A stretch of 64,000 bases of DNA from Candidatus Saccharibacteria bacterium (GTDB taxonomy: Bacteria > Patescibacteriota > Saccharimonadia > Saccharimonadales > Saccharimonadaceae), in NCBI GenBank assembly GCA_016789455.1, contig JAEUQU010000002.1, forward strand, positions 620,001 to 684,000, written 5' to 3'. Position 1 is the stretch's first letter; each line of letters opens with the position of its first letter. This document shows, in pieces, positions 31,694 through 62,444 of this stretch. The position numbers and the translations under genes are program-made. The notes under the pieces were generated by a model that was not told where the DNA came from, ran no database searches, and saw nothing but the letters and a program-made list of their open reading frames with translations.

Positions 31694-31777
31694 TGGGCAG
31701 AGAGGGAATCGAACCCTCACTCCATTACTGGAACAGGATTTTGAGTCCAGCGCGTCTACCAGTTCCGCCATCTGCCC
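31691..31777 (-). tRNA. tRNA-Leu (CAA)
   Basis: 87 nt with encoded CCA. Acceptor GGGCAGA/TCTGCCC, D-arm with GGTAGACGC typical of class II tRNA-Leu, anticodon loop CTCAAAA giving anticodon CAA, a long variable arm, and T-arm GGGTTCGATTCCC. The anticodon stem as read (CTGGA/TCCTG) has a U-U mismatch at its second pair. Confidence 0.93.
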
Positions 31778-39727: not shown

Positions 39728-39804
39728 GGCCCCTTCGTCTAGTGGTCCAGGACATCAGGTTCTCATCCTGAAGATCGCGGGTTCGAACCCCGCAGGGGTC
39801 ACCA
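39728..39804 (+). tRNA. tRNA-Glu (CTC)
   Basis: 77 nt with encoded CCA. Acceptor GGCCCCT/AGGGGTC, D-arm TCTAGTGGTCCAGGA, anticodon stem TCAGG/CCTGA around loop TTCTCAT (anticodon CTC), T-arm GCGGGTTCGAACCCCGC. Confidence 0.95.
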
Positions 39805-60079: not shown

Positions 60080-60838
60080 GTGACCGAACAGCCGCCATCC
60101 CGTCCATCACGGCCGAGCCGGGCAGCACAGCGACGCCGGCGCACCAGACAGCGCCTTATCTGGCTGACCGCCATCCTGCTCACAGCCATCACTGCGGGTA
60201 GCCTGATCATCGTCTTCGCCGACGACCAGCCGGCCAAGGATGCACCTACTGCCGGCACCGCGATGCCCTCGACCGAATCCCACCCCTGCGGCAATGACCT
60301 CCCATTCCGCTACACCGCCAATGAACCCGGCAAGCAGGATGAACGGGCCATGGGCAAGCCGATCCTCAGCGATGAGGAAAAGCGACAGTCCAAGCCGAAC
60401 CGGCAGGCGCTCGTCGCCCAACGGTTCGTCGAATGGCTCTGCGGCACGCAGTACCGTGGCATGGACCCCAAGGGCCTCATGGCCGTCCTGGCAGCCACGG
60501 ACCCCAACTTCGACCCGAACCAGCCCCTGCCGTCCAAGCAGGAACTGGCACGGCTGGGCAGCGACCTGCAGTCCCGCATCGTATGGAGCAGGACACGGGT
60601 CGACCCGCTGATGCTCGACGGCAACGAGTACCTGCTGGGTGCCGCGGGCACGGGGAAGCAGATCACTTTCCGCGCCTACCAGCCAGCAGCTTCGACCACG
60701 AACCTGTGCGCCGCCATCTTTGTGCGGCCGCAGGGCAACCCTGAGGGCAAGCCCCTCCCGATCGTCCTCAACCTGGACAACGGCTTCCAGCCGGCGGGCA
60801 CAAGTGAGGACTTCCACGAGTCGGTCTTCCGGCGGTGA
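60080..60838 (+). CDS. Single-pass membrane protein with external domain
   Basis: 252 aa. Arg-rich cytoplasmic N-terminus, one helix (about 26-46), then a ~200-residue external domain with three cysteines, an EKRQSKPNRQALVAQRFVEWLCGTQYRG stretch and a C-terminal beta-rich part (ITFRAYQPAAS, PIVLNLDNGFQP). Start is the GTG at 60080 with AGGAG 5 nt upstream. The family is unknown. It may resemble the 59530 product in topology but no sequence similarity is evident. Confidence 0.68.
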   Translation: MTEQPPSRPSRPSRAAQRRRRTRQRLIWLTAILLTAITAGSLIIVFADDQPAKDAPTAGTAMPSTESHPCGNDLPFRYTANEPGKQDERAMGKPILSDEEKRQSKPNRQALVAQRFVEWLCGTQYRGMDPKGLMAVLAATDPNFDPNQPLPSKQELARLGSDLQSRIVWSRTRVDPLMLDGNEYLLGAAGTGKQITFRAYQPAASTTNLCAAIFVRPQGNPEGKPLPIVLNLDNGFQPAGTSEDFHESVFRR

Positions 60839-61060: not shown

Positions 61061-61094
61061 CAAAAATAAAAAGCCCAGACTGCAAAGGTCTGGG
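61061..61094 (-). terminator. Terminator of the candidate ncRNA
   Basis: CCCAGAC/GTCTGGG stem with a seven-base loop and an eleven-base U-rich tail on the minus strand. Confidence 0.8.
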
Positions 61095-61524
61095 AAAAGG
61101 GAATTCTTCTCGGCGCGTAGTGCAAGGAACAATTGAAGCGCGGAGTAAGTCGTACTCAAAGGGTACGGCGTCGAGCACTGGAAATTGTGACGCAGCAATA
61201 CGTGTCGAGAAACATCCCACCAACTCAAAAGGCGCTAGGTAAGGGTGGGCATCACCTAGCGCCATTTGACCCTTCAACCCACCCATAAAGGGCAGAGATG
61301 CCAGCCCGAAAGCCAGCCTCAAGCGTGACCCACCTCACAATCTCGAGAGGTCCGCCGGTTAAAGGGATTAGATTACACACCAGTGTGATGCTCGAGGCAC
61401 CAGTCTGGCTAGTGGAGGGTCAAAAACTAGGCAGACCACGATGTGCAACCTAACAGTAAAACTGTTAAATAGGGGGTATAAGGTGCATGTAGTTATTGCG
61501 CGAGGGAAGCACAATAACTTACCG
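61061..61524 (-). ncRNA. Candidate structured non-coding RNA (~460 nt)
   Basis: A near-consensus promoter (TTGACA, 17 nt, TAATAT at 61531-61559, minus) and an intrinsic terminator (CCCAGAC/GTCTGGG then TTTTTATTTTT, 61061-61094) bound ~460 nt with no convincing reading frame. Predicted helices include AGTTATTGTGC/GCGCAATAACT at the 5' end, TAACAG/CTGTTA, paired CTCGAG elements, and GGCGCTAGGT/ACCTAGCGCC. The loop of the last (CCCACCC) can pair with an upstream GGGTGGG, giving a pseudoknot. I looked for RNase P, tmRNA, 4.5S and 6S signature sequences and did not find them. Confidence 0.5.
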
Positions 61525-61530
61525 TCAGTT

Positions 61531-61559
61531 ATATTAGCACGGCAGTTCATAAATGTCAA
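61531..61559 (-). promoter_or_regulatory. Promoter of the candidate ncRNA
   Basis: TTGACA (61554-61559), 17-nt spacer ending CCGTGC, TAATAT (61531-61536). It diverges from dprA. Confidence 0.75.
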
Positions 61560-61580
61560 TACTTTTTTACATAAATAATA

Positions 61581-62444
61581 ATGAAAAGCAATACCACATC
61601 TTCAGAGAAGCATAAGTTCTTACAGAGGGGCAAAGATATTGACCCTAAAGTTGAAATATTTTATTACATCGGAGCACTGCCGCGAGGGCGTCCGCCGACC
61701 GTCGCCATAGTGGGAAGCCGGAAGCCGACCCCCTATGGCATTGAGGTCACGCGACGCCTGGCCTTTGACCTGTCGGCCAGGGGAGTCGTCATCGTCAGCG
61801 GCCTTGCTCTTGGAGTTGATGGCATCGCCCACCAGGCGGCACTCGAAGCCGGAGGCACCACCGTCGCTATCCTGGCGGGAGGCCTCGATACCATATACCC
61901 CACGCGCCACACCCGGTTGGCAGCCGACATCGTCGCAGCAGGCGGAGCACTGCTGAGCGAGCACCCTGACGGCACGCCACCCATGCAGTTCCGTTTCTTG
62001 GAGCGCAACCGCATCGTCAGCGGCCTGAGCGACGGCGTCGTCGTCGTTGAAGCGGCTGCACGCAGCGGCACGCTCTCTACGGCCAGTTGGGCGTTGCAGC
62101 AGGGCAGGGTGGTCATGGCAGTGCCGGGCAATGTCACCAGTCCGATGTCGGCAGGCTGCAACCAGCTGCTAAAAAGCGGCGCCTCGGTCGTGACCCAGGC
62201 CAGCGATGTACTGGAAGCGATCGGATTGCAGTCTGCCATAAGCCATACCCAATCATCCATCTTTGAAGCGGCCTCGGCCGAGGAGCAGGCACTCCTTGCG
62301 GAGCTGGCAGCTGGCGAGCGTGACGGAGAGTTATTACAACAAAAAAGCGGCCTGTCGATGGTCGTATATATGCAGACGATGACGATGCTTGAGATAACAG
62401 GCAAGATACGTGCCTTGGGAGCAAACCAATGGACACTCGGCTAG
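61581..62444 (+). CDS. dprA: DNA-processing protein DprA (short form)
   Basis: 287 aa. Binds incoming single-stranded DNA and loads RecA in natural transformation. Rossmann-like core with VAIVGSRKPTPYG, VIVSGLALGVDGIAHQAAL, VAILAGGLDTIYP, LLSEHPDGTPP, RNRIVSGLSDGVVVVEAAARSGTLSTASWALQQGRVVMAVPGN and GCNQLLKSGA, all DprA signatures. The N-terminal SAM domain is absent; a C-terminal winged-helix-like part is present. Together with the pilin-like genes it suggests competence. Confidence 0.95.
   Translation: MKSNTTSSEKHKFLQRGKDIDPKVEIFYYIGALPRGRPPTVAIVGSRKPTPYGIEVTRRLAFDLSARGVVIVSGLALGVDGIAHQAALEAGGTTVAILAGGLDTIYPTRHTRLAADIVAAGGALLSEHPDGTPPMQFRFLERNRIVSGLSDGVVVVEAAARSGTLSTASWALQQGRVVMAVPGNVTSPMSAGCNQLLKSGASVVTQASDVLEAIGLQSAISHTQSSIFEAASAEEQALLAELAAGERDGELLQQKSGLSMVVYMQTMTMLEITGKIRALGANQWTLG

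Follow-up and report, generated by a model that had tools for sequence, protein, structure and literature searches.

A structured RNA of Saccharibacteria whose terminal hairpin loop recurs in viral contigs

The window, a 64,000-nucleotide stretch of a Saccharibacteria (TM7) genome of 1.44 Mb in two contigs, carries on its minus strand the gene of a structured RNA that ends in a hairpin with a near-invariant loop. The same hairpin stands by itself in viral contigs. Judged by sequence comparison, the RNA is a previously undescribed, new structured RNA family. We favour, with modest confidence, the view that it is a class-wide housekeeping RNA whose terminal loop docks a dedicated factor, and that phages reuse the hairpin to recruit this factor or to compete for it. 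New housekeeping RNAs that span a whole class come to light rarely, and the biology of Saccharibacteria, ultrasmall parasitic epibionts whose genomes are reduced, is largely unexplored.

Position and extent of the gene

The interval 61061–61561 is flanked by a gene ending at 60838 and by dprA (DNA_processg_A; 61581–62444, plus strand; Pfam PF02481, E = 4.7e-69). Both of its strands fold far more strongly than dinucleotide shuffles (z-scores of -6.6 and -6.5, the latter for the minus strand; 0 of 100 shuffles), and, as originally supposed, we found no convincing protein encoded in it. Its promoter and its terminator-like hairpin both lie on the minus strand, and assigning the gene to this strand corrects the first reading.

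The near-consensus promoter of the original prediction is present on the minus strand (61559–61531): a -35 box TTGACA at 61559–61554, a 17-nt spacer with TG, and a -10 box TAATAT at 61536–61531. This is a sigma-70-type promoter with an extended -10 (TTGACA-17-TAATAT) that belongs to the RNA gene itself, back to back with dprA. At the same place, at least 9 of 12 consensus positions are matched in 149 of 152 homologues versus 20% of shuffled upstream controls, and at least 10 of 12 in 128 of 152 versus 3%. At the other end, TTTT occurs within 40 nt past the loop core in 141 of 152 homologues.

Since the promoter is kept and a T run follows the terminal hairpin (P9), the conserved RNA should run from about 61525 to just past P9. 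Its predicted length is about 300–310 nt and the gene is placed at 61222–61525 (minus strand), with a putative 5' end about 6 nt past the -10 box and a putative 3' end just past P9. The covariance model R2 (see below) matches 61371–61222 (E = 7.7e-34), which covers the 3' domain. An extent of about 460 nt had been proposed; the conserved RNA is shorter, with about 310 nt and the CCCACCC hairpin (61269–61225) as its 3' end. The terminator proposed for the longer form exists as a terminator-like hairpin (61094–61074, minus strand), but it lies beyond the conserved RNA and is absent from the conserved match. It is possibly a back-up terminator of the window species. The roughly 160 bases that lead to it (61061–61225) are unconserved even relative to the other genome of the genus, which matches only query positions 177–521, that is, window positions 61226–61570.

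Fold and covariation

We assessed covariation in 30 full-length homologues over 54 pairs in five helices. Of the alignment cells at these pairs, 97.4% were paired, and pairing fell to 37–49% when partners were slid by 1–3 columns. Two-sided changes were seen in 36 of the 54 pairs, compared with a mean of 14.9 in shuffles that leave the relatedness among homologues in place, and 0 of 500 shuffles reached 36. Given this effect size and the slid controls, we consider the structure secure: in the alignment, the predicted helices are supported by covariation beyond chance.

All elements described here are on the minus strand. The predicted fold begins with a 5' hairpin, P1 (61491–61519), whose sequence varies among homologues while the inverted repeat stays. 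It is followed by the motif ACCUUAUACCCCC (61472–61484), predicted to be unpaired and located in near-invariant columns of alignment A2. Helix P3 (61454–61437 with 61384–61367) has two-sided changes in 11 of 15 pairs and encloses the variable P4 and the conserved CCCUCCAC (61419–61412). In the Nanosyncoccus-type clade, GUUAG:CUAAY of P3 becomes GUUGC:GCAAY, a double compensation. The variable domain is closed by P5, formed by CCCUUUAACC with GGUUGAAGGG (61366–61357 with 61279–61270), in which 99.3% of cells are paired and three pairs have two-sided changes; P5 is also present in other families and in a further order. The P6 hairpin, GCGGACCUC...GAGGUGGGUCACGC (61356–61346 with 61334–61322), has two-sided changes in 6 of 10 pairs. 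In some lineages (seen within L203–L222) P6 is replaced by other, larger domains, which gives the RNA swappable modules. The larger domain found at L203–L205, L210, L212–L215, L220 and L222 contains the conserved motif GACTAT.CAGTAGTG...CAGGCGCGCACC.

The 3' terminal hairpin P9 (61225–61269) has two-sided changes in 15 of 17 pairs. A T run follows it or is merged with it in most relatives, and P9 is a probable terminator. In one locus (L116, 551–619) two P9-like hairpins in tandem end a single RNA.

Distribution

Within the window's GTDB family, searching at the DNA level recovered the element from 175 of 198 genomes, which represent 55 of 61 genera. Among the matches listed for the exact 19-mer of the terminal hairpin, the named relatives are almost all Candidatus Saccharibacteria and include Nanosyncoccus alces and TM7 oral taxa 348, 350 and 352. 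R1, a covariance model built on the 3' domain, matched 85 of 86 genomes of the same family, 29 of 39 from other families of the order and 0 of 32 from other orders of the class. R2, a second covariance model with divergent families included, matched 7 of 7 genomes of the same family, 6 of 6 from other families of the order and 1 of 2 from other orders of the class; the scores of the divergent order-level sequences that went into R2 are not independent. Two results are independent of model building: R2 matched 8 of 11 genomes from a second order of the class, and it matched none of 177 other Patescibacteria. Where matches in this second order had enough flank, they showed divergent dprA and pth neighbours and the same order of motifs as in the window.

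On the distribution of R1 and R2 matches, the RNA is class-wide in Saccharibacteria and undetected in the sampled Patescibacteria outside the class. Its presence in most samples of the main order and in the second order, and its lack of detection elsewhere in Patescibacteria, indicate a lineage-specific core function.

A fixed loop on a variable stem

The P9 loop (61241–61253, minus strand) reads GAUGCCCACCCUU in the window's family and GGUGCCCACCCCCU in other families; the form found in the other order is U(G/A)(A)CCACC. Its core, UGCCCACCC, is constant across the family and the order. The closing pairs and the stem of P9 vary freely, with compensation, whereas the loop is fixed. In a sample of the phylum, each of the 16 genomes bearing the motif had exactly one copy, with zero mismatches (one was allowed). 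At up to one mismatch, the motif was missing in eight further genomes of the same family, at least some of which lack it owing to different closing pairs, as in the fetched relatives. The hairpin motif was not found in wider Patescibacteria. One family member (L221, G086:C42) has another hairpin at the end of its RNA, and the conserved loop is missing from it.

We also looked for the 9-nt complement of the loop (GGGTGGGCA) in seven genomes. It had no conserved site shared among them, and it was not found within the RNase P or tmRNA genes. As the seven genomes share no conserved complementary RNA, a protein is the likelier partner of the loop.

Stand-alone hairpins in viral contigs

In IMG/VR, 28 viral contigs carry the exact 19-mer but not the remainder of the RNA. 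A relaxed pattern for the type-1 loop (GAUGCCCACCCUU-type) hit 59 places in IMG/VR, 34 of them with six or more stem pairs. The type-2 loop (GGUGCCCACCCCCU-type) was found at 37 places, 33 of them with such a stem; none of the 33 places found with the reversed loop as a control had one. There are 67 stand-alone viral hairpins in total, of both loop types and with different, fully paired stems. The invariance of the viral loops is partly built in, because the sets were found by exact loop patterns, and the stems alone constitute independent evidence. In known phages (INPHARED) and plasmids, hairpin matches were at chance level only.

Most viral sites (64 of 73) are intergenic. In L162 the hairpin lies between the genes for the portal protein and the head maturation protease, and in L324 it is just upstream of the terminase large subunit gene. 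One site, between genes of about 720 and about 270 amino acids, holds a type-1 hairpin in L170 and a type-2 hairpin in L297, L307, L315 and others. A T run directly follows 16 of the viral hairpins. Some of the hairpins with a T run stand just past a -10 box, and the predicted RNA then barely exceeds the hairpin (L174). Type-2 hairpins with different stems also occur inside open reading frames in L292 (2766–2782) and L306 (3593–3609), apparently in the same gene.

The link between the viral contigs and a host comes from a single contig, L322, which carries genes for RecT, an FtsK-exonuclease and a cytosine methylase as well as a complete RNA with a type-2 loop. A separate hairpin in L322 is also of type 2, the loop type of its own full RNA. 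L322 is either a provirus or a phage that captured the RNA. Phage genes together with the full RNA tie at least one such phage to Saccharibacteria.

Long stretches that resemble further structured RNAs precede the hairpin in L163, L168, L173 and L181, and L163 and L181 share the element AACTAATCTTTTCGAAAGGTTCTTTT. Rfam searches of the structured-looking viral stretches ahead of the hairpin gave no match.

The hairpin is also present in two Actinobacteria isolates, Antrihabitans sp. YC2-6 (L058, 4218–4236) and Arthrobacter terricola (L134, 4898–4916). Both copies sit in islands of lower G+C content (about 50–57% versus about 64%), which are probably integrated elements and which share gene types with the viral loci L163, L173 and L181. 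A phage-like contig with the hairpin (L151), labelled Aeriscardovia, is probably misbinned.

Proposed function of the RNA and its hairpin

A fixed loop on freely varying stems, in host and viral genomes alike, argues that a trans factor reads the loop. In the scheme that we favour, the RNA would be transcribed from its own strong promoter and fold into a multi-helix body (P1–P6), and P9 would end the RNA, act as its terminator and display the fixed loop. A single dedicated trans factor, most likely a protein, would dock on the loop. We infer that the RNA and the docked factor form a ribonucleoprotein, in which the RNA carries or titrates the factor, and that phages exploit this factor. Phage transcripts would contain the same hairpin, mostly in the gaps between genes (some of them structural) and in some cases as very short RNAs directly past a promoter, where it would recruit the factor or compete for it.

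The main rival to docking is that P9 is a mere signal for RNA-end protection or processing, such as a nuclease-resistant or nuclease-recognised hairpin. P9 would then stabilise the 3' end, phages would use the hairpin to protect or process their mRNAs, and the function of the RNA would lie in its body. The 3'-terminal, terminator-like position of P9 is consistent with such a signal, and so is the intergenic location of the viral hairpins, often between co-oriented genes such as those for the portal and the head protease. However, a stem that merely protects would not require a constant loop of 13 nt, and here it is the loop that is fixed and the stem that is free. In addition, some viral hairpins make up almost the whole predicted transcript (in L174, a -10 box, about 7 nt, the hairpin and a T run). 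We consider a mere end signal the less likely of the two.

The docking scheme leads to a more specific suggestion about the phages, namely that those of Saccharibacteria mimic the hairpin of the host RNA, matched by loop type, to hijack or block its factor, and that the mimic is also present in integrated elements of Actinobacteria, the group that hosts Saccharibacteria epibionts. We put this forward tentatively, as something a little short of probable. Lambda boxB and HK022 put are phage leader hairpins that bind host factors. Together with phage processing hairpins they resemble the proposed mimic as short, factor-recognised hairpins in phage transcripts. The present case differs from boxB and put in that the loop also ends a cellular non-coding RNA, and in that its two types match those of different host lineages. 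The virus-shared hairpin could serve as a bait for its partner and as a marker for phages of the mostly uncultivated Saccharibacteria, and it offers a way to ask whether phages make use of a non-coding RNA pathway of their host.

A possible partner for the loop within the RNA

The original prediction had stressed a pairing between the CCCACCC loop (61253–61241) and an upstream GGGTGGG (61284–61278, minus strand). If the loop paired with this GGGUGGG, phage hairpins could invade in trans and misfold the host RNA. Both segments are present and can pair: all seven positions are complementary in nearly all of the 30 aligned homologues, and GGUGGG also occurs before UUGAAGGG in most other families. 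However, the two segments do not covary, and the pairing is gone from several lineages with an intact loop. The Nanosyncoccus-type clade has GGUGUG, GAUGCG or GAAGCG with an unchanged loop, L208, L209 and L211 have GGGUGCG, and in the other order the partner is slight or absent. The pairing is not conserved, the emphasis placed on it was not borne out, and we judge this contact, with its invasion by phage hairpins, improbable. An alternative loop partner in P6 (GGUGGGU) was rejected because P6 has its own covariation support.

Comparison with known RNAs

With Rfam 15, the RNA locus in the window had no match at gathering thresholds and none with a sensible score up to E = 10, and 20 divergent homologue loci had no match up to E = 0.5. 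Weak matches on either strand (cripavirus IRES, VqmR) were far under the cut-offs and were rejected. The only matches of the window at gathering thresholds were tRNA genes at 31694–31777 (minus strand) and 39728–39801 (plus strand). The covariance models of RNase P RNA (RF00010) and tmRNA (RF00023) were unmatched in the window; the genome encodes these RNAs at C2:916132–916503 (263 bits) and C2:910527–910935 (89.8 bits), respectively. The 6S and SRP models were unmatched in the window (to E = 10) and in the 20 homologue loci (to E = 0.5). Rfam 15 includes models of GOLLD, ROOL, OLE and raiA, and these were absent among the matches within the same limits. The claim of a structured RNA distinct from RNase P RNA, tmRNA, SRP RNA, 6S RNA, GOLLD, ROOL and raiA thus withstood both the Rfam search, at gathering and relaxed thresholds, and the covariance analysis. 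We found no description of a non-coding or structured RNA of Saccharibacteria in a search of open-access papers that took in a minority of preprints.

If the RNA were 6S, SRP or another known RNA in strongly diverged form, this would account for its single copy per genome and near-universal presence in the family, as seen for housekeeping RNAs; the RNAs located genome-wide were RNase P RNA and tmRNA. Against this, neither the window nor the 20 divergent homologues gave an Rfam match even at relaxed E-values, the genome has separate loci for RNase P RNA and tmRNA, and the branched fold is unlike 6S RNA, which is a single long hairpin. We regard such an identity as very unlikely.

GOLLD and ROOL are also phage-linked; here the viral contigs bear the hairpin only and not the body, L322 being the exception. 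Like the window RNA, GOLLD, ROOL and OLE are ornate RNAs of bacteria, highly conserved and without a known function, and they are large (PMC12286853). The window RNA differs from them in its length of about 310 nt, its lack of an Rfam match, its chromosomal location by dprA and its restriction to Saccharimonadia. The raiA RNA is mid-sized and structured, as is the window RNA, which differs in having no Rfam match, in its phylum and in its motifs. The raiA RNA is often found near competence genes. The proposed working, in which an abundant RNA keeps hold of a protein factor, would recall 6S and CsrB-type titrating RNAs, with which the window RNA shares neither a sequence nor a structure match. 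CsrB has many binding sites, whereas the window RNA has one loop copy per host genome (16 matching genomes).

The dprA neighbourhood

A divergent dprA adjoins the RNA in 114 of 142 assessable loci, and pth is near the RNA in many loci, including those of the second order. This synteny would suit an RNA that controls dprA, or a gene downstream, for example pth, in cis, whether as leader, attenuator or antisense. However, dprA is transcribed in the opposite direction, the next gene downstream in the window is convergent, and pth is found in both orientations. The RNA is also kept in 28 of the 142 loci without dprA detected alongside, which argues that it is not a mere dprA leader. A cis-regulatory role is accordingly highly doubtful. 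In Tn-seq of the saccharibacterium Southlakia epibionticum, dprA is reported as not significant for fitness (PMC10633639); the same paper describes a method of natural transformation. A complete Saccharibacteria RNA was also seen on a contig labelled Chloroflexi (L042, SEAL01000024.1), which is probably misbinned.
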